IMG/VR virus record: IMGVR_UViG_3300032236_000146
Location: 1-32,403 of that record
DNA length: 32,403 nucleotides
Source of the DNA: a virus
Direction: 5' to 3' (one strand)
This document shows, piece by piece, positions 1-32,403 of this stretch; position 1 is the first letter of the stretch; each line of letters starts with the position of its first letter. The position numbers and the translations under genes are program-made. Under the pieces are notes generated by a model. It was not told where the DNA came from, did no database searches, and was given only the letters and a program-made list of their open reading frames with translations.

Positions 1-123
1 AAAGTAATTGAACCAGCTCCAAAATCGTGTGCCGTTCCTGTTGTAGCAGCACCAGTTACTAAATAAACATCTCCTGCGTTTCCTGTGCCATTTACTAAAT
101 AAGGGGTATTTGTAGCTACGTTC
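1..123. repeat. Terminal direct repeat, copy 1 (circular closure)
   Basis: These 123 bases are identical to 32281-32403. An open reading frame continues in frame across the joined ends, so the repeat is most simply the overlap of a circular assembly, meaning a circularly permuted or cohesive-ended phage genome of 32,280 bp. It lies inside a coding sequence, which argues against a functional packaging terminus here. Confidence 0.95.
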
Positions 124-12425: not shown

Positions 12426-13592
12426 CTACCAAACTGCCACCTTAAATTTAGGAGCAGTTAAATGAGTAAATACTGCATACCTACAAGCGTCCATTGCGTC
12501 ATCATTTGCCTTCACGGGTTCTTCTATTACATTGTCGTTTTTGTCCTTCTTCCATTTGTAGGACATAAATTCTCGCTTAAGGTTTTGGCTATTGTAATGA
12601 ATGTTTATAGGATATGATTTCATTTTAACAATCCCTGCCCATACATCTTTTTGAGCAGGTTTAATATTAAAACCTTGCCTGTAAAGTTCTTCGATTGATT
12701 TTGGTTCAGCAGCGTCTGCGTAAATTGTTGCTCTTGTTGGTATTTTTTCCTTTATTAATCGTGTAAGGTCGGCTAATGTTAATCCGCTTTCGTAAATAAT
12801 TTCTTCAAAATAGTTCTGCCCTTCGTGATGGGTTACTTTAATTAAAACTGCGGGGTGTACATATCCAAAGTCCAAACCATAAAATATATCTCCGTTAGGT
12901 GCTTCATCATATTGTTTCCATTGCGTGTAAATCAATTCTTTTGCTGCTCCTCTTTCGCCTAATCCGTAAACCTTCCACATAAAGTCATCGGGCAAATCCT
13001 TGTATTGCTCAATGTTTTTTATTTGACTTTCGGTAAGGTTGGATATATTGTTTAGATATGTTGAGTGTATTCTTTTATTTTTAGGCTCATCGGCCACCTC
13101 GTAAACCCAAGAAACAAAGTCGGCGGGGTTCCAATCCAAAAACGTTTGACCCGTTGTTCTCATTAACAATTGGTCGTACAATGTTTTTTTAATTAGATTG
13201 GCTTCGTTTATAAATAAAATATCCCTTGCAGGTCCACGTGCTTTGCCTTCATCTTCTAATCCAAACAATTCAATATAAGAACCATTGTCAAACGTAAATA
13301 TGTAATCCGAATAACTAAATTTTTTATCATCCCATAGCTGCCAATCTTCCATTATTTTTCTAAAATCCCTATAAACCCCTCTTTTAATATGCGGAAGCGA
13401 ATGAGATACTATTGAAATTCTAATTCTTTCAATCGATAAGGCAATCCAAACTAAAAGCTGAACTACCGAATAAGATTTGCTTGAACGGGTGCCACCTTCG
13501 TTGCAAATAATAGGATATCCTTCTTCGTATGCCTTTTTATTAGCATAGAATACAGGAGTTACTTTAATCTTTAATTGGTTCGCAATTTGCAT
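12426..13592 (-). CDS. terL: Terminase large subunit
   Basis: This 388-residue packaging motor and nuclease has Walker A at 33-40 (GGTRSSKS), Walker B DILFINEAN at 124-132 with catalytic Glu130, and a C-terminal RNase H-like nuclease with Asp241 (GLDFGYVHP), Asp293 (IYADAAEPKSIEEL) and an acidic end pair in NDDAMDACRYAV. The motif set is of the PBSX/Terminase_3 type. The start overlaps TerS by 29 bases; the chosen ATG leaves a normal N-terminus before Walker A. The packaging strategy (headful or cohesive ends) cannot be read from sequence alone. Confidence 0.95.
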   Translation of the reverse strand: MQIANQLKIKVTPVFYANKKAYEEGYPIICNEGGTRSSKSYSVVQLLVWIALSIERIRISIVSHSLPHIKRGVYRDFRKIMEDWQLWDDKKFSYSDYIFTFDNGSYIELFGLEDEGKARGPARDILFINEANLIKKTLYDQLLMRTTGQTFLDWNPADFVSWVYEVADEPKNKRIHSTYLNNISNLTESQIKNIEQYKDLPDDFMWKVYGLGERGAAKELIYTQWKQYDEAPNGDIFYGLDFGYVHPAVLIKVTHHEGQNYFEEIIYESGLTLADLTRLIKEKIPTRATIYADAAEPKSIEELYRQGFNIKPAQKDVWAGIVKMKSYPINIHYNSQNLKREFMSYKWKKDKNDNVIEEPVKANDDAMDACRYAVFTHLTAPKFKVAVW

Positions 13593-13911
13593 CAGGTTCT
13601 ATTACTATTTGAATGTTCCCTTGAATATTTGCATTAATATCGGTGGTTTGCTTTGATTTTCCTTCAAGCCTATCTAACAATTCTTGATACGCTCTAATAT
13701 CGCCTTTCATAGCCTTTGCTATTATTTTCATATCCAACTGCTCGGCAATAGTAAATTCTTCTATTTCGCCTGTTACTGGGTTTTTGATTGTAGTAACCAA
13801 TTCCAATAATTTCAATAATCTTGTTTTAGAATTTAACACGCCTTTGCCTCTGCCTTTTGGGTTTCTCACTTCTCCTTTTTGTGCAGGTATTAAATTTTGT
13901 TCGTTTGCCAT
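13564..13911 (-). CDS. Small terminase-like protein (DUF5681-type N-terminus)
   Basis: This 115-residue protein is encoded directly upstream of TerL. It opens with a basic Gly/Lys/Asn segment, GEVRNPKGRGKG, like DUF5681 proteins that precede terminases in many phages. A helical region with IAKAMKGDIRAYQELLDRLE follows. It probably binds DNA and directs TerL to the packaging start. Assignment rests on position and this motif. Confidence 0.72.
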   Translation of the reverse strand: MANEQNLIPAQKGEVRNPKGRGKGVLNSKTRLLKLLELVTTIKNPVTGEIEEFTIAEQLDMKIIAKAMKGDIRAYQELLDRLEGKSKQTTDINANIQGNIQIVIEPDANCEPIKD

Positions 13912-13936
13912 CTTCTAATCTCTTTCTTATTAAACA

Positions 13937-13944
13937 CAAAGTTA
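13937..13944 (-). promoter_or_regulatory. Promoter box TAACTTTG before terminase
   Basis: TAACTTTG fills the short gap between the dioxygenase stop and TerS, 25 bases before the TerS ATG. It would separate the packaging genes from the modification operon just upstream. Confidence 0.42.
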
Positions 13945-14754
13945 CTAATCTAAACCTTTGAATGCTTTTAATGGATAAAAAACTAATGAATTCCTGTAAC
14001 CGCCTTCTTTGGTAGGAACAATTGGCGTAACTCCGTGAACGTTTCTCCAAGCAGGATAAACTAACATTGAATTATCAGAACTGTCCATTGTGGCATTGTA
14101 ATCAGGTACGGTTGTGTTTCCTCCCGTAGCATTGTGTTTTTTTGCAATTATTACATTTACACAACCTTCTAAATTCCCTGCGTCCCTGTGAAACGCGGCG
14201 GCTATATTGTAATTTGAGATAGAACTTGTAAATAAATTTCCAAATCTCCATTTTTTAGGTATATTAGTTTCAATAATTTGTTTTTGTCTTTCGTAAATGT
14301 TTGGAGCAATTAATTTCATTAGTTTTTCGCTTTCTTCGCACAACATTAACATTGCTTTAACAAAAGTTCCCGCTGATTTTATATTGTGAACGCTTGAAAC
14401 GCTTGGATAAGGTCTTCTCATATGAGGTCTTGGCGGACAGCTTCCTAGAATTGCTGACATTTGTTGAACTAAATTGTCTTTTGCGTATTTTCCGTCTTCG
14501 GAATAACCTTTCATTAAATTGGAACTTCTTGTCATTACGCTTTTTGGAACGTTTTTGCTTCTAAATTCTTTATTTGCAACGTCCGATAATTTAGTTAATC
14601 TTTCCGAATGTTTGTTCATGTCCTTTATATAAAATCCTATCAATTCTCCGTTATCATAAAACAAAGAATCTTCAGTTACGTTTGGTTCGATTGTTCCGCA
14701 AACATCTCCAATTTGCACATTGTGAGAAACTTTAATTAAATCAATTCTTTTCAT
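13945..14754 (-). CDS. TET/JBP-like 2-oxoglutarate/Fe(II) dioxygenase (candidate DNA base hydroxylase)
   Basis: This is a 269-residue protein. The C-terminal third has the signature of the double-stranded beta-helix dioxygenase fold: FHRDAGN with Fe ligands His189 and Asp191, a Gly-Gly turn in ATGGNTTVPDYN, the third ligand His240 in VHGVTPIVP, and Arg254 in GGYRNSLVFYPL, placed to bind 2-oxoglutarate. The combination with the three genes before it matches phage TET/JBP clusters known from comparative genomics, in which thymine or 5-methylcytosine in DNA is oxidised. No cytosine methylase is present, so thymine to 5-hydroxymethyluracil is the likelier reaction. Its start overlaps the kinase by 14 bases. 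The substrate is inferred; the fold is fairly clear. Confidence 0.75.
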   Translation of the reverse strand: MKRIDLIKVSHNVQIGDVCGTIEPNVTEDSLFYDNGELIGFYIKDMNKHSERLTKLSDVANKEFRSKNVPKSVMTRSSNLMKGYSEDGKYAKDNLVQQMSAILGSCPPRPHMRRPYPSVSSVHNIKSAGTFVKAMLMLCEESEKLMKLIAPNIYERQKQIIETNIPKKWRFGNLFTSSISNYNIAAAFHRDAGNLEGCVNVIIAKKHNATGGNTTVPDYNATMDSSDNSMLVYPAWRNVHGVTPIVPTKEGGYRNSLVFYPLKAFKGLD

Positions 14755-15223
14755 ATATTAGTTTTTTAATTAATTCTAAACAATCTTGACTTGTTTTTTC
14801 TTTATAATGAGCGTTTATATTTTGAACTCTTGTTTCTATTCTTTTCAAATGTTGTTCCGATTGTTTTGAATTTCTTTTTAATCTGCCTTGTTCGCCGTTG
14901 TCTGTTATTCTAATTGTAATTGGATTAAAAACATTTATAAATTTTGAATTGCTAAACCTGTCACCTTCGCAAATTACATTAAAATTGTGTTTTTCTTGTA
15001 TTTTTCTAAATCCTTCAAAATCTTGTGCAACCGCCATACTTAATTTGTCGCTTCCTTCAAATATTTCTCCGTTGTAAATTCCCAACACTACAATTTTGTT
15101 GTTTAATACAAAATGTATTTTTTCATATTTAGCTTTTTGTGTTAAATTAAATTCTTTTATTAATTCTTTAACAACCCAAGTTTTTCCTGAACCGCAGTTT
15201 CCTGTTATTAAAATAGTTTTCAC
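14741..15223 (-). CDS. P-loop kinase (candidate 5-hydroxymethyluracil DNA kinase)
   Basis: This 160-residue small P-loop kinase has Walker A GNCGSGKT at 8-15. A conserved-looking FEGSDKLSMAV segment (55-65) and VICEGDRFSN (83-92) could bind substrate and Mg. The C-terminus is a basic helix region with RLKRNSKQSEQHLKRIETR, possibly DNA-contacting. It starts with GTG, which overlaps the preceding gene's TGA as GTGA, so translation is coupled. In known phage pathways a kinase of this type phosphorylates hydroxymethyluracil in DNA to make a leaving group for the next enzyme. Assignment as a DNA base kinase depends on the neighbours. Confidence 0.7.
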   Translation of the reverse strand: MKTILITGNCGSGKTWVVKELIKEFNLTQKAKYEKIHFVLNNKIVVLGIYNGEIFEGSDKLSMAVAQDFEGFRKIQEKHNFNVICEGDRFSNSKFINVFNPITIRITDNGEQGRLKRNSKQSEQHLKRIETRVQNINAHYKEKTSQDCLELIKKLIYEKN

Positions 15224-15942
15224 GGCAATAAATTATGATATTGAATTAATCTTGAATCTTCTTTTATTTTTCTAATTTTTTTTAAATCATCGTTAGGTTT
15301 GTATTTGTTGTGTTTGTAACTATGATATTTGCACAAAAGAGTTTCTAATTCAAGCAAATTGTTGGGATTAAAAACATTGTTTGTAATTGAATTTTTGACT
15401 TGATTTTTAGCTTCCTGAAGATGTTTTTTATATAAAAAAATATTGTTTTTGTATATTGATGTGTCTTCTTTTTCGCCGTTTAACAACAATAATCCTTTTA
15501 AAGGATATTCGTAAGCGTTTAAAAAAGTTTGGTCTTTAAAAATCATTTTTACGTCAAAAACTTTGTCCAAAATGTCGGCTGCTTTCCAACTTGCCCAATT
15601 TCCCATTCCTTTTATTTTCGTAAAATTATCTTTGAATGTTAAATAATCTATTCCGTGAAATTTTTTTAATTTGTCTAAAGTTAAAGGACTTAAAATTTTT
15701 TCCCAAATTGAAAAATAAGGTTTGCTTTTTTGTCTTTCGTTTCCAAATTTGATTTGTTCTTTGGTAATAAACCCATCAGTGTACAATAATTCGCTTGACA
15801 AATTGTAAATAAGGAGCTTTTTTTTAAACAATTCAAATGTTTTAAATTCTCCGTATTTTTTTTTATAATTGATTAAAAAAACATAATCGGGGTCAATGTC
15901 GTATGTTTTAATTATTTCGTTTGAGAACTGCTCAAAATTCAT
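15220..15942 (-). CDS. DNA-glycosylase-like transferase (aGPT-PPlase-like) for hypermodified thymine
   Basis: This 240-residue, Lys/Asn/Phe-rich protein has a helix-hairpin-helix-like segment KGMGNWASWKAADIL at 111-125. This resembles alpha-glutamyl/putrescinyl-thymine pyrophosphorylase families, which derive from HhH DNA glycosylases. A C-terminal ETLLCKYHSYK segment (200-210) also fits that family. In known phages such enzymes displace a phosphate on hydroxymethyluracil with an amino acid or amine while the base stays in DNA. Here it overlaps ParB by 4 bases upstream and the kinase by 4 bases downstream. The family call is by pattern and context; the attached group cannot be predicted. Confidence 0.68.
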   Translation of the reverse strand: MNFEQFSNEIIKTYDIDPDYVFLINYKKKYGEFKTFELFKKKLLIYNLSSELLYTDGFITKEQIKFGNERQKSKPYFSIWEKILSPLTLDKLKKFHGIDYLTFKDNFTKIKGMGNWASWKAADILDKVFDVKMIFKDQTFLNAYEYPLKGLLLLNGEKEDTSIYKNNIFLYKKHLQEAKNQVKNSITNNVFNPNNLLELETLLCKYHSYKHNKYKPNDDLKKIRKIKEDSRLIQYHNLLP

Positions 15943-16508
15943 AATTTGCTTTTTTCTTCTTTAAGATGTTCTAAAAGCATCATACCAACGTTTGCTCCTC
16001 TTTCTCTCCACCATTTAATTATTTCAAATGCTTCTTCGTAATATTCTAAATCGTATTCTATTTGAACGGCTTTTCTTACGTTTGAATTCATATCAGAAAT
16101 TTTGTCGGACATGTCTTCTTCGTCTAAAATGCTGTAATCAATTTCTTTTTCTGAACCGAAAAACGGCAAATCCAAACCCCATTCACCTATTTCTTCTGTA
16201 TCAAATTCGTTTGCTAACATATCCCAATCCCATTCTCCAAATCCTACGTTGTCTTTAACAATAAATTCTTTCTTTTGTTCTTCGGTTAGGTCTTTAGCTT
16301 GTTTTACGGGAACATCTTTTAATCCTGCTTCAATACAAGCCTTTAACCTCATGTTGCCCCCTAATACGACATTGTTTTCGTCTATAACAATAGGTCTCAA
16401 TTCAAGCATTTGAGGAAATTCCTGAATAGATTTTACAAGTTGTTTAAACTTGACGTCTTTAATAACTCTGGGATTGTTTGGGTTGGGTTTAATTTCTGTT
16501 ATTTTCAT
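15939..16508 (-). CDS. ParB-like nuclease/DNA-binding protein of the modification cluster
   Basis: This is a 189-residue protein. Residues 1-75 are a ParB/sulfiredoxin-fold domain (ITEIKPNPNNPRVIKD, then LRPIVIDENNVVLGGNMRLK with the GGNMR box at 50-54). A second segment, KDNVGFGEWDWDML, is typical of phage ParB proteins that travel with DNA-modifying enzymes. The acidic C-terminus is family-specific. There is no ParA partner, so plasmid-style partitioning is unlikely; site selection or nicking linked to modification or packaging is more plausible. It heads the four-gene overlapping set. Confidence 0.8.
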   Translation of the reverse strand: MKITEIKPNPNNPRVIKDVKFKQLVKSIQEFPQMLELRPIVIDENNVVLGGNMRLKACIEAGLKDVPVKQAKDLTEEQKKEFIVKDNVGFGEWDWDMLANEFDTEEIGEWGLDLPFFGSEKEIDYSILDEEDMSDKISDMNSNVRKAVQIEYDLEYYEEAFEIIKWWRERGANVGMMLLEHLKEEKSKL

Positions 16509-16517
16509 GTTTTGATT

Positions 16518-16637
16518 TTATCTGCCCTGACCACGATACGCTTTAGGTCTTGGGCTGTGCTTATTATATGATTTTTTGGCTTTACCTTCTTTCTTTTTAC
16601 CAAATGAAACCTTACCGTTTGTAGTTAATTTAGCCAT
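16518..16637 (-). CDS. Small basic protein (39 aa) ahead of ParB
   Basis: The 39-residue ORF from ATG 16637 begins MAKLTTNGKVSFGKKKEGKA and ends PRPKAYRGQGR. It is extremely basic, with about a third Lys/Arg, and ends in an Arg/Gly tail, suggesting nucleic-acid binding. It fills the space between the NinG-like gene (stop at 16638) and ParB almost without gap, which supports it being real. I do not recognise a characterised family. Confidence 0.6.
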   Translation of the reverse strand: MAKLTTNGKVSFGKKKEGKAKKSYNKHSPRPKAYRGQGR

Positions 16638-22070: not shown

Positions 22071-22409
22071 TCAAATAATTTCAATTAATTTTTTTATTTC
22101 TTCTTGGTAGTCATTATCGTATTTTAAACTTAGCACTTCATCTATGGTTTGTATTGCGTGAATTATGCTAGTGTGGTCACGATGGAACATTCTACCAATC
22201 TCTTTTAGGGTTAACCCAGTTCTACGTCTTAATAAATACATAGAAATAAATCTAGCTTTAACAAAACCTCTTAGTCTGCTTTTGCCTTTTACTTGAATTG
22301 GGGTTAGTCCGTAGAAATCGCAAACATCATTTATTATTTGATTTGCGTGTTTTTGTTCGTTGTAGAGTAATTTGTTCATCGTTCTGCTTGGTGCGGTCCA
22401 GTAGCTCAT
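22071..22409 (-). CDS. DnaA domain IV-only DNA-binding protein
   Basis: This 112-residue protein contains only the C-terminal DNA-binding domain of DnaA: a basic loop GKSRLRGFVKARFISMYLLR (42-61), then TLKEIGRMFHRDHTSIIHAI with the DnaA signature RDHTSIIHA at 77-85. The AAA+ ATPase part is absent. It could bind DnaA boxes at the phage origin or compete with host DnaA. The start is ATG 22409, with MNKLL at 22379 as an alternative; both overlap the coiled-coil ORF upstream. Confidence 0.88.
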   Translation of the reverse strand: MSYWTAPSRTMNKLLYNEQKHANQIINDVCDFYGLTPIQVKGKSRLRGFVKARFISMYLLRRRTGLTLKEIGRMFHRDHTSIIHAIQTIDEVLSLKYDNDYQEEIKKLIEII

Positions 22410-23984: not shown

Positions 23985-24410
23985 TTAATTAGCGTAAAAA
24001 TCAAAATAATCATCATCATCAACATCCTCTAAAATAGCCAATATTCGGTCTAATTTCTCGGTTTCTAGCTTGTATAGCTGGATTTGTAAGTCCTCAATTT
24101 CCTTTTTGGCTTGTAGGTTCACTTGGTAATCATGCTCTGCGTGTTCCCTATCTCTTTGGCTTTGTCTGTTTTGAGACATCATAATAATAGGAGCAGCGTA
24201 TGCGGCTTGAGTTGAAAAAATAAGATTTAATAAAATAAATGGGTAAGGGTCCCAATGTTGCACAAAACCAACGATATTTAGTATCATCCAAACTAATACG
24301 ATTATAGTCTGCCAAATAATAAAAGTCCACGACCCCATTCCGTTTGCTACTGCATCTGCTATCTTATCACCAAAGCTAGATTGCTCTTTATGTTTTTTGT
24401 GCCAATTCAT
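23985..24410 (-). CDS. DUF1003 membrane protein (moron-like)
   Basis: A 141-residue protein from ATG 24410; a TTG two codons earlier is possible but overlaps the promoter box. It has the DUF1003 pattern: GSWTFIIWQTIIVLVWMILN, DPYPFILLNLIFSTQAAYAA and PIIMMSQNRQSQRDREHAEH, giving two membrane helices followed by a cytoplasmic coiled coil and a very acidic end. The family is widespread in bacterial chromosomes, not a usual phage gene. It stands alone between hairpins with its own TATCTTTG box, so it may be expressed independently and alter the host membrane. Function of the family is not established. Confidence 0.85.
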   Translation of the reverse strand: MNWHKKHKEQSSFGDKIADAVANGMGSWTFIIWQTIIVLVWMILNIVGFVQHWDPYPFILLNLIFSTQAAYAAPIIMMSQNRQSQRDREHAEHDYQVNLQAKKEIEDLQIQLYKLETEKLDRILAILEDVDDDDYFDFYAN

Positions 24411-24413
24411 ACC

Positions 24414-24421
24414 CAAAGATA
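24414..24421 (-). promoter_or_regulatory. Promoter box TATCTTTG before DUF1003 gene
   Basis: This TAnnTTTG match is 3 bases before the ATG at 24410 and directly after a terminator. The transcript would be nearly leaderless. Confidence 0.42.
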
Positions 24422-24854: not shown

Positions 24855-25042
24855 GCTTTTAGAGATAATTCATCTGGTCTTGGTTCACTTGCAATAAATT
24901 TATTCCCACCTCTAATTTTAGCTAGTGCCGCACGAATTTGCTTTTCTAGACTATGTAAGCTGCTTAAATTAGCAACTAATATTTCTTCTTGTTCTTGTAA
25001 TGTCATTTTATTAAAGCCACGAGGCAGTTTAAGTTTAAGCAT
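24851..25042 (-). CDS. Small helical protein (63 aa), unknown
   Basis: This 63-residue protein is mostly helix (KMTLQEQEEILVANLSSLHS, EKQIRAALAKI) with a polar end. No family recognised. It overlaps the HNH gene by 8 bases upstream and the HExxH gene by 4 bases downstream. Confidence 0.55.
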   Translation of the reverse strand: MLKLKLPRGFNKMTLQEQEEILVANLSSLHSLEKQIRAALAKIRGGNKFIASEPRPDELSLKA

Positions 25043-25538
25043 ATATTAAATTTGTATTATTCTTATTTTTATTAATTATTTTAGCCGCTAAATTTTTATA
25101 ATTATATCCTAATATTTCAGCAGCTTCTTTTAATGAATCATAAAATATACCTGTTTCAGTATTTAATACAATTTTAGACTTTAATTTCCCATATTTTGAA
25201 ATAAAATCTTTTTGCTTATTACTTACAAATCTTAATTTATTATCCCAAGCGTGTTGATTATTTTGTTTTGAAGTACACCATTCTAAATTTTCAACCCTAT
25301 TATCTGTTTTTATACCGTTTTTATGGTTTACTTGTGGCAAATTATTTTCATTATTAATAAAGGTTTGAGCAACTAATCTATGCATTCTTTTAGTATAACT
25401 TTTACCATTTTTACATAAACTTAATTGTCTGTATCCATCAGTATCAAATACTGGTTTTAACCATGTATTAGTTTTATGATTAAATACTTCCCCATTTTCT
25501 GTAATTGAATAATTTTCAAAATCTTTTATTGTTTTCAT
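25035..25538 (-). CDS. NUMOD4-HNH homing endonuclease
   Basis: A 167-residue protein from ATG 25538, which lies one base after the upstream stop; an earlier ATG at 25595 would overlap that gene by 56 bases and precede the domain. The N-terminus is NUMOD4-like (FENYSITENGEVFNHKT). The centre is an HNH_3 core (RMHRLVAQTFINNENNLPQV, then NHKNGIKTDNRVENLEW). A C-terminal NUMOD1-like segment (YDSLKEAAEILGYNYKNL) binds DNA. Probably a free-standing mobile endonuclease inserted in the operon; no intron signs seen. Confidence 0.88.
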   Translation of the reverse strand: MKTIKDFENYSITENGEVFNHKTNTWLKPVFDTDGYRQLSLCKNGKSYTKRMHRLVAQTFINNENNLPQVNHKNGIKTDNRVENLEWCTSKQNNQHAWDNKLRFVSNKQKDFISKYGKLKSKIVLNTETGIFYDSLKEAAEILGYNYKNLAAKIINKNKNNTNLIYA

Positions 25539-25539
25539 T

Positions 25540-25740
25540 TTAGTATACTTTATCGTTTTGAATTTCCTCAAGTTTCTTAAGGTAAAGGATAGCATCCTGT
25601 AATTCTTCTCGCAAATGTACCAACCATTCGGAAGTTGTCAAATCTTTTCTGTCTAAAGTTGTTCCATAAGTGTCAAAACCCTTACGCTCTCTATCTTGTA
25701 GGTCTTCTATTACTTCGGTTAATATTTTTGATTGTTTCAT
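25540..25740 (-). CDS. Small MazG-like/nucleotide-metabolism protein (66 aa)
   Basis: This 66-residue protein contains ERKGFDTYGTTLDRKDLTTS and then REELQDAILYLKKL, an EExxD-type metal-binding helix seen in MazG-like NTP pyrophosphohydrolases. It is about one unit of such a fold, so it would need to dimerise to be active. It starts inside the TAATG overlap with the exonuclease gene. The enzymatic role is inferred. Confidence 0.6.
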   Translation of the reverse strand: MKQSKILTEVIEDLQDRERKGFDTYGTTLDRKDLTTSEWLVHLREELQDAILYLKKLEEIQNDKVY

Positions 25741-26492: not shown

Positions 26493-27098
26493 TTATGCTA
26501 TTGAATCTCGAATTAAATCTGCTTCAGCCTCTCTCCTTAATACAAGCCCATCCATTCCTCGCTGCTCCCAAAGTCTTTTACTTTTTTCTATCTCCTCTGC
26601 AATGCCATGATAATCTTGTTTAGCAACCAACGGAACTATCGCTTTCATTTCTACTCTTGAATCTCCAGCTAAACTATTACCCCTATTATAAACCATAGAC
26701 ACTAACGCTCCTTGAGTGTCCTCATTTAAGTGAATCATATCAGGATAGATTTCTAAAGTTGCCTTATAAAATCTAGGTATTGAACTTTTAACGAAAACAT
26801 CATATGCTATATTGTATGGGATGCGAACATTTAAAACTTCTCCTTTAATCATTGATTTTGCCTTTTCACCTTTTAATCCGCACAAAGGACGTAAAGCATT
26901 AACAAAATTTAAGTTTAAACTTGGTGACCAATCAGCTAAAAATTGTTTTTCAGTATTATATCCCAAATCATATCCAATTCCCAACGTTGCACCAGATTCT
27001 CCACCTGGCCAAGTTACTTTTTGTAAGGCGCGATTATAATATTCTTTGCCTCCAACCTCAAATTGGATTATTAGTTCTATAGATTTACGAGATATCAT
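26493..27098 (-). CDS. Endolysin, lysozyme/pesticin-like
   Basis: This 201-residue protein fits the lysozyme superfamily: the candidate catalytic Glu14 in IIQFEVGGKEYY, the beta-hairpin ATLGIGYDLGYNTEKQF, and later GALVSMVYNRGNSL, typical of GH24/pesticin-like enzymes. It would cut peptidoglycan at lysis. No signal peptide is visible, so it needs the holin. Its start overlaps the GIY-YIG gene by 14 bases. Confidence 0.85.
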   Translation of the reverse strand: MISRKSIELIIQFEVGGKEYYNRALQKVTWPGGESGATLGIGYDLGYNTEKQFLADWSPSLNLNFVNALRPLCGLKGEKAKSMIKGEVLNVRIPYNIAYDVFVKSSIPRFYKATLEIYPDMIHLNEDTQGALVSMVYNRGNSLAGDSRVEMKAIVPLVAKQDYHGIAEEIEKSKRLWEQRGMDGLVLRREAEADLIRDSIA

Positions 27099-27738
27099 TC
27101 CTTTTAATTTTTGCTCTTTGTTGTGTTCCTTTCATTTTTTCTTTAATAAATTCAGCCTTTCCTTGTTCTTGCCACATTTTTAAAGATATTTCTTTGCATT
27201 TTAATTTAGTTTCTTCGCTATGCTTTTTACCTAAATTATATTGTCTTAATTTTTCTTTAGTTTCTTCCGAACAAGGTTTGCCTTTTCTACCTTTTAATGC
27301 TAAACTAATTTTTTTTCTTGTTTCTTCACTTGCTACATAATTACTGTGCTTACCTTTTAAAGACTCTTTCATTTTTTCTTTAAATTCTGGATTAGCCCAT
27401 CTATTTTTAGCGTTTTCTTTTAGTTTTTCTCTATAAGAATCACCTCTAATAATACCTTTTTGTCCTTGTCCACCATCTGTTAAATTAACTAAAATGCCAT
27501 TACCCAAGTTTTTTCTACCATATAAACTTATAAATTCTTTTTCCTTTTCTAATGCCAAATCGTAATCTAAATCATCAATTAATATTTCAACTTCATATTC
27601 AGTCTTAAAAACAATATTTTTCCAAAAGTTATTTCTATTTCTTACAGTAAAAGCCCGTTTATAATTATCGCTACCACCTATACCTATATAAAAAGGCTCG
27701 TTTTTATCAAGTCTAATATGTCGATAAACGTATGCCAT
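27085..27738 (-). CDS. GIY-YIG homing endonuclease with NUMOD3 repeats
   Basis: This is a 217-residue protein. The N-terminal GIY-YIG-like domain has VYRHIRLDKNEPFYIGIG and ALEKEKEFISLYG with a Glu for metal binding. The C-terminal half has three NUMOD3-like DNA-binding repeats (KGKHSNYVASEETRKKIS, GKPCSEETKEKLR, GKKHSEETKLKCK). It interrupts the lysis cassette between holin-like genes and endolysin, sharing 14 bases with the endolysin start. Likely a selfish free-standing endonuclease. Confidence 0.88.
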   Translation of the reverse strand: MAYVYRHIRLDKNEPFYIGIGGSDNYKRAFTVRNRNNFWKNIVFKTEYEVEILIDDLDYDLALEKEKEFISLYGRKNLGNGILVNLTDGGQGQKGIIRGDSYREKLKENAKNRWANPEFKEKMKESLKGKHSNYVASEETRKKISLALKGRKGKPCSEETKEKLRQYNLGKKHSEETKLKCKEISLKMWQEQGKAEFIKEKMKGTQQRAKIKRNDIS

Positions 27739-32200: not shown

Positions 32201-32403
32201 CTACCGAAGTAACAGTTCCAGTTGCTCCACTTGCTCTATCCCAGTTTGTGCCATCATAAATAACTTGGTCACCGTTAAAAAAAGTAATTGAACCAGCTCC
32301 AAAATCGTGTGCCGTTCCTGTTGTAGCAGCACCAGTTACTAAATAAACATCTCCTGCGTTTCCTGTGCCATTTACTAAATAAGGGGTATTTGTAGCTACG
32401 TTC
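29262..32403 (-). CDS. Tail fibre with S74 intramolecular chaperone (main part; starts at 311 across the junction)
   Basis: Together with 1-311 this encodes a 1109-residue fibre. The shaft has repeated Gly/Ser/Thr-rich modules: two copies of GYVPYTGAT(S)xVDLG, two TGTVTSV...TTSGTI modules, repeated TYTLPDASGT(L/I)AL, and two NVGIGxxSPS...L modules, each common in Bacteroidota phage fibres. The C-terminal 106 residues are a peptidase S74 chaperone. Ser1004 and Lys1009 in SIRASK have the five-residue spacing of the known self-cleaving dyad, so release before Ser1004 is predicted after trimer folding. TTG at 32084 is internal, not a start. It would bind the host surface. Confidence 0.9.
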   Translation of the reverse strand, partial: NVATNTPYLVNGTGNAGDVYLVTGAATTGTAHDFGAGSITFFNGDQVIYDGTNWDRASGATGTVTSVAVSESSAALNITGSPITTSGTINIGFAGTSAQYVAGDGSLITFPSLSGYVPYTGATSDVDLGSHKLSLYSEQFASISAPSYSEGALWYDSTQKALAYYNDISGNILHIGQEVQLKVHNNTGATIAKGAPVYVTSTSSGYSYPNVALAKADTLTTANVIGLANQAIATGTDGYITLSGLLTGANTGSFTVGDVLYLSPYSAGQLMNTMPPTGYAVRVGVVSYSNTPNGTIYINQSNAFSTAANIVGTIQISQGGTGATTASGALTNLGAAADNAVVHLAGTETITGDKTFNGSVDFNNSTYLNSSVFFRNNAVGSTLYTNFSILKSGSLETLNYLFTTGNSSKLVFNDAANYTYTFPSATGIIALTSDIPSLTGYVPYTGATSSVDLGNYSFTANTIFVNSGGASSGVVLLKQGSGFVTNTGYTTIGADTTNNFYIISNVSTVQRSATFNLGSITASATRTYTLPDASGTLALLENDQTFSGNKIFSGIVMSTTNYRVQQNSSLSAAPSGYVNIGAVNTKLAYSIGITSSTTKSFYLETSGLTDNTLRTYTLPDASGTIALVGGSGVGTVTSVGLSSSTTGVTIGSSPVTTSGTIILSIATASGSQQGLLSSTDWNTFNGKQNALGFTPIGGTGTTNYHAKWTASGVLGNSLIYDNGTNVGIGQTSPSYNLDVTGTGRFTGNLISSTNILVGTTTVGDKLTVVNSGSYAALQIGNGTNSSFFGYANASGNYNNGASSGDAIIRGYSGVSISGNNGSSTNLYINSSGNVGIGTSSPSKKLHISATVNGVFEGMLLENTASSSYALYQCKTGSSGVWQWGVWNDNGYRVGISGVADYFTINSGGYIILSSLVYGNTVSSSPRTLYIDSVGGLGGISSIRASKTNIQDISNVNWLNQLNPVSFNYRKKDEEGNYLDEAYEDLNYGLIAEDTEPIAEFLINYRIKEDGTKEMAGIEYSRLITPMLKAIQELSAEVNELKALINK
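32281..32403. repeat. Terminal direct repeat, copy 2 (circular closure)
   Basis: Identical to bases 1-123. It carries the same part of the tail-fibre gene and should be counted once in the unit genome. Confidence 0.95.

Follow-up and report, generated by a model that had tools for sequence, protein, structure and literature searches.

Genome Organization

The analyzed sequence (hereafter, the window) is the whole 32,403-base virus record IMGVR_UViG_3300032236_000146. Its ends carry an exact terminal direct repeat of 123 bp, and the reading frame of the tail fiber gene is unbroken across the joint of the two genome ends. These characteristics allow us to assume that the window is very probably a whole 32-kb phage genome, so the absence of a gene from it is meaningful. 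The only matches in a scan for the host were a contig of an Oscillatoria MAG and a fragment of a beta-proteobacterial MAG.

The genes under study are transcribed in the order ParB-like protein, amino acid:DNA transferase (ADDT), kinase, TET/JBP dioxygenase, probable small terminase, large terminase (Table 1). In the first four of them, each gene start overlaps the end of the preceding gene, and the start of the TET gene is overlapped by the kinase gene by 14 nt. The kinase and transferase had originally been placed downstream of the dioxygenase; this holds only for the proposed chemistry, as both genes are located upstream in transcription.

Elsewhere, the window contains a gene encoding a DUF1003 protein (23985–24416; E 9e-41), two genes resembling homing endonucleases with HNH and NUMOD3 (25035–25595 and 27085–27738) and a gene for a small protein consisting of the DnaA C-terminal DNA-binding domain only (22071–22409), which adjoins an ERF recombinase gene.

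Table 1. Positions of the operon genes, terminase genes and terminal repeats in the window.
Feature	Position	Strand	Basis
Terminal direct repeat, left copy	1–123		Exact match to right copy
Large terminase	12426–13592	−	PF04466/PF17288
DUF5681 protein, probable small terminase; follows TET in the late cluster	13564–13911	−	PF18932, E 1e-9; between TET and large terminase genes
TET/JBP-family 2OG/Fe(II) dioxygenase, 269 aa; proposed 5-methyl hydroxylase of thymine in DNA	13945–14754	−	PF12851, residues, fold
P-loop kinase, 160 aa, GTG start; proposed 5hmU-DNA kinase	14741–15223	−	Walker A; profile comparison with Tonitrus kinase
ADDT, 240 aa	15220–15942	−	PF18724, PDB profile matches, model
ParB-like protein, 189 aa; first gene of the operon	15939–16508	−	phrog_620; PF02195 below cut-off
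Terminal direct repeat, right copy	32281–32403		Exact match to left copy

TET/JBP Dioxygenase

The dioxygenase ORF begins with ATG, and its boundaries and strand, as well as the residues H189, D191, H240 and R254, were exactly as given in the original prediction. These residues follow the HRD...H...R order typical of the iron ligands and the 2-oxoglutarate (2OG) arginine. The protein matched the Tet_JBP family (PF12851) with an E-value of 2.7e-10 and 40.1 bits against a curated cut-off of 34.9. An alignment of relatives showed that H189, D191, N194 and H240 are kept in 163/163 sequences and that R254 is present in each of the 162 sequences extending over its position.

An AlphaFold 2 model (pLDDT 82) was closest in fold to TET2 (Z 17.1), NgTET1 (16.7), CMD1 (16.1) and CcTET (15.9), followed by FTO (13.5), AlkB (12.4) and PHD2 (12.0). 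By this ranking, a prolyl-hydroxylase-like grouping is rejected; membership among dioxygenases that do not act on nucleic acids, such as prolyl hydroxylases, had been named as an outcome that would overturn the assignment. A PDB search with a narrow TET alignment (A1) gave no match, and the profile of a wider alignment of phage relatives (A5) found TET2 by sequence (E 1.4e-4). In the latter alignment, H189/D191 and H240/R254 are paired with the TET2 residues that we take to be the metal ligands and the 2OG arginine. Thus, the 269-aa protein is a TET/JBP dioxygenase, and oxidation of a 5-methylpyrimidine in DNA is its predicted activity.

Note that members of this family carry the name "queuine tRNA-ribosyltransferase" in phrog_6059 and in RefSeq entries (e.g., YP_007674071.1). 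Their fold and motif are those of TET, and this mislabel conceals the TET/JBP family.

Transferase, Kinase and ParB-like Protein

The transferase matched PF18724 (E 9.2e-10; 39.1 bits, cut-off 26.2), and its profile found two PDB entries, namely 25qc, an amino acid:DNA transferase domain protein (E 6e-16), and 8z2m, a glycinyltransferase (E 1.2e-10). Its model (pLDDT 91) was superimposed on PUGT (8z2n) over 231 residues with Z 21.0 and rmsd 2.7; the next unrelated matches were DNA glycosylases with Z of 8.8 or lower. According to its PDB title, 8z2n is the 5-phosphomethyl-2'-deoxyuridine glycinyltransferase of the phage PaMx11. Of all the evidence presented, this title, which names a uridine derivative as the substrate, speaks most strongly for thymine and against cytosine as the modified base. 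The modeled fold of the ADDT is that of PUGT and points to a uracil-derived base. A tblastn search for phage records was negative with the window transferase as the sole query and positive with its more distant type (locus L002).

The Walker A motif of the kinase is GNCGSGKT, with G, K and T invariant in four aligned relatives. In a profile–profile comparison, residues 4–139 matched the kinase of the Rhodococcus phage Tonitrus (PF18751, Ploopntkinase3) with a probability of 95.8 and E 8e-9. By itself, the kinase did not match any Pfam kinase family above the cut-off, including PF18747 (HMUD2) and PF18751, and a PDB search gave no useful match. Comparison with the ViI-type HMUD2 kinase and with a second kinase type of related loci (c8) revealed nothing shared beyond the P-loop. 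Judging by its sequence, the kinase probably works like the 5hmdU DNA kinases, short of belonging to their family.

The ParB-like protein had strong PHROG matches, e.g., phrog_620 (E 6e-29), and, slightly below the cut-off, matched PF02195 (E 3e-5; 24.3 bits, cut-off 26.3). The ParB gene lies upstream of the TET gene in most relatives.

Thymine or Cytosine as the Substrate

The sole characterized phage TET reportedly acts on 5-methylcytosine, as Burke is said to have described in 2021, so membership in the family alone does not fix the substrate. One can therefore suppose that the window dioxygenase oxidizes 5-methylcytosine, made by the host or by another enzyme, and that the kinase and transferase elaborate 5-hydroxymethylcytosine. 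In line with this, N194 is conserved at the position of TET2 N1387, and some TET relatives carry a C5-cytosine methyltransferase gene (4/52, 6/32 including a bacterial genome, and 2/42); two short contigs of the kinase type carry it, as do a few relatives belonging to other types. However, a six-frame search did not find such a methyltransferase (PF00145) in the window, and it was absent from 19/19 records of the kinase/ADDT type that are 28 kb or longer. The solved relative of the transferase acts on 5-phosphomethyl-deoxyuridine. In addition, the position of TET2 H1904 and NgTET1 H297, which presumably contact cytosine, is occupied by leucine in 157/163 relatives, although this is a suggestive clue only. 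Taken together, a cytosine substrate appears unlikely.

Search for a Nucleotide Pool Route

Six-frame searches of the window revealed neither PF00303, which covers thymidylate synthases and dUMP/dCMP hydroxymethylases, nor PF00383 (deaminases). The same PF00303 search was positive in all four pool-route controls, namely SPO1, M6, ViI and phiW-14, which gives weight to its negative result in the window. Thus, the original statement that the genome lacks a thymidylate-synthase-like or deaminase gene stood, and no hydroxymethylase was found hidden among the unassigned genes. PF00303 was also absent from 126/126 related TET-route records, many of which are fragments.

Fourteen genomes with ADDT genes were compared. 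Seven contained a thymidylate synthase (TS)-family gene and no TET, six, including the window, contained TET and no TS gene, and the Caulobacter phage Cr30 contained both. Fisher's test gave p 0.005 for TET versus the TS-family gene, a value that is illustrative since the seven TS-bearing genomes mostly belong to one family. The Cr30 synthase (373 bits) scores like an ordinary thymidylate synthase; in this genome (L152), it occurs together with TET, ADDT and a kinase that is related to that of the window and annotated as "terminase small subunit".

The dioxygenase could instead hydroxylate free thymine nucleotides, so that 5-hydroxymethyluracil (5hmU) enters DNA via the pool. There is a precedent in thymine 7-hydroxylase, another 2OG enzyme, which acts on the free base. 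Nevertheless, the nearest folds are those of TET enzymes acting on DNA, no gene for nucleotide handling or for a DNA polymerase came to light in the window, and host DNA would be loaded with the product as well, which makes this route quite improbable. Action on RNA, e.g., tRNA, would agree with the phrog_6059 label, but it is hardly credible, as fold and motif match TET and not that label; moreover, the gene sits in a compact operon together with ParB and a DNA transferase, which suggests DNA as the target.

Cassette Exchange Around the TET Gene

Close relatives of the TET protein were found to be encoded on more than 580 IMG/VR stretches. Across the 120 loci that were examined, the constant element is the pair of ParB and TET, which usually adjoins the terminase genes; the other genes vary. 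The cassette was an FkbM methyltransferase in 40 loci, a kinase/ADDT set in 24 (including the window), a TAGT glycosyltransferase (PF20691) in nine and another glycosyltransferase-like gene in six; 29 loci contained nothing, and the remainder were cut off upstream. When the search was performed outward from the kinase or ADDT, TET was found nearby in 73 of 81 loci, the other eight being cut off on the TET side.

Pairwise DNA comparison showed that the breakpoints of the exchanges fall at gene ends. The window matches locus L002 at 12444–15220 and 15943–16508, with the transferase gene alone exchanged, and locus L015 at 12438–14766 and 15939–16519, with FkbM in place of the kinase and transferase. 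In L004, TET and ParB match those of the window with nothing between them. The TETs of L009 (FkbM) and L014 (GATase–GNAT–ADDT–kinase) are 96% identical. On a quick tree of 101 TETs, at least 34 cassette changes were counted; its well-supported branches alone require nine for the kinase/ADDT sets and 11 for FkbM. Metagenome chimeras are an unlikely source of these swaps: separate samples contain identical junctions (L002 and L003), and cultured cyanophages also have the order ParB–FkbM–TET.

TETs so similar should give the same product, and thus all cassettes seem to draw on one common hydroxymethyl handle, which is probably 5hmU. By the same reasoning, the products of all cassettes attached to near-identical TETs should be uracil derivatives. 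In the extended form of this idea, 5hmU in finished DNA would be a shared hub made by one TET with ParB, and the exchangeable cassettes would aminoacylate it (kinase and ADDT, optionally joined by GATase, GNAT or PLP enzymes), O-methylate it (FkbM, giving 5-methoxymethyluracil) or glycosylate it (giving base-J-like phage DNA). We consider that this extended form has an even chance of being correct. In the literature covered, outside which key papers on TET-type pathways lie, neither an account of how widely cassettes are exchanged around a near-constant TET nor a description of uracil-based FkbM or glycosyltransferase products in this group was found.

Several arrangements can be mentioned separately. 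The commonest one is ParB–FkbM methyltransferase–TET (L052:15790–17914 in MED4-184, L015:2893–4928 and 38 other loci), from which an O-methylated hydroxymethyl base would be expected. Two tandem ParB genes open a second order, ParB–ParB–TET–PLP-like enzyme–ADDT–kinase, which is present in L037–L039, L044 and others. The kinase type c8 is accompanied by ADDT and a class II glutamine amidotransferase in L021–L027, L031, L032, L076 and L078. In L063, L093, L096 and L101, a 243-aa protein that by eye resembles GT-A glycosyltransferases is encoded between ParB and TET. The Mycobacterium phage Acadian (L139:1–3588) has the order ParB–TET–TET-associated glycosyltransferase–PIG-L de-N-acetylase–Ploopntkinase3, and its genome lacks a C5 methyltransferase; a base-J-like glycosylated and deacetylated modification is possible there. 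In LilMcDreamy (L134:2656–3759), ParB–TET–ADDT is followed by a second dioxygenase resembling aspartyl/asparaginyl hydroxylases, which perhaps hydroxylates the added amino acid.

Proposed Pathway

On the basis of these results, we consider it quite probable that the TET, kinase and ADDT of the operon act one after another on finished DNA to produce a hypermodified thymine. The phage DNA would be copied by host enzymes from ordinary dTTP, after which the dioxygenase would oxidize thymine in DNA at its 5-methyl group to give 5hmU. The kinase would then phosphorylate the hydroxyl of 5hmU to 5-phosphomethyluracil, and the ADDT would displace the phosphate by an amino acid, yielding an N-linked aminoacyl-methyluracil, probably at some of the sites only. 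By analogy with the solved ADDT relative, the likeliest candidate for the amino acid is glycine. The ParB-like protein may help to target or load the enzymes, as a clamp or in a targeting role, and the location of the operon beside the terminase genes would fit modification shortly before packaging. The kinase and ADDT steps are modeled on pool-route phages, in which 5hmU is phosphorylated and then used by the transferase (PMC6449724).

The original prediction, in which a dioxygenase opens the route and no dUMP hydroxymethylase takes part, held in all the tests that were run, and the comparative evidence adds to it, the reactions themselves being predicted from sequences and models. Its corollary, that partial or site-specific modification would distinguish a route in DNA from one through the pool, did not hold: the pool-route phages ViI and phiW-14 are also modified partly (about 43% and 47–48% of T, respectively) and with site preference, the preference for TG/TC being attributed to the kinase (PMC6449724).

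Comparison with Known Systems

A five-gene thymine hypermodification system was described in 2025 for the phage Tonitrus, and its kinase was called a 5-hmU DNA kinase by the authors (PMC11955845). Like the window, Tonitrus combines ParB, TET/JBP, ADDT (aGPT-Pplase2) and a related P-loop kinase, and its record lacks a thymidylate synthase gene. Unlike the window, it has a different gene order, an extra unknown gene and an ADDT of 289 aa; its TET is 25% identical to that of the window, and both host and phage are unrelated. Thus, the dioxygenase-first route has already been proposed, and the window is a new, compact and probably complete example of it.

In ViI, M6 and phiW-14, a kinase and then an ADDT-type transferase likewise act on 5hmU in DNA, and the ADDT family is shared with ViI (PMC6449724, PMC5977210). 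In contrast to the window, hydroxymethyl-dUMP is made in these phages before replication by a TS-family enzyme. A ViI-type relative has the HMUD2 kinase, and ViI does not have TET; for phiW-14, a pyrophosphoryl intermediate was described (PMC5977210). The kinetoplastid JBP1/2 enzymes of base J synthesis resemble the proposed pathway in that a TET/JBP protein hydroxylates thymine in DNA and a second enzyme decorates it (PMC6449724), but the next enzyme there is a glucosyltransferase, in place of the kinase and amino acid transferase of the window.

The cyanophages MED4-184, MED4-117 and P-HS2 share with the window ParB and TET (49% identical) adjoining the terminase; in contrast, they carry an FkbM methyltransferase at the place of the kinase and ADDT. 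In the system ascribed to Burke, a phage TET/JBP protein makes a hydroxymethyl handle in DNA, as proposed here; its substrate is reportedly 5-methylcytosine formed by a phage C5 methyltransferase, and the product is said to be glycosylated. The genes for that methyltransferase and the glycosyltransferase are both missing from the window. TET-based phage pathways are said to have been predicted by Iyer in 2013. That work is cited for predicted hypermodification gene clusters in PMC6449724.

If the proposed chemistry holds, phages would arrive at the same hypermodified thymines in two unrelated ways, namely via the nucleotide pool, with a hydroxymethylase, and via finished DNA, with TET. Thymine in DNA would then be hydroxylated by viruses as it is by the JBP enzymes of trypanosomes. 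Such a route would need no change of polymerase or pool, would suit small phages that use host replication and would explain the free exchange of decorating genes. It would also provide small sets of enzymes able to introduce aminoacylated bases into DNA, with cultured phages as test subjects; TET and ADDT occur together in the cultured relatives Tonitrus, LittleMunchkin, LilMcDreamy, Kozie and Bane1. A thymine decorated with an amino acid, if it is made, would represent a known type of viral genome disguise.
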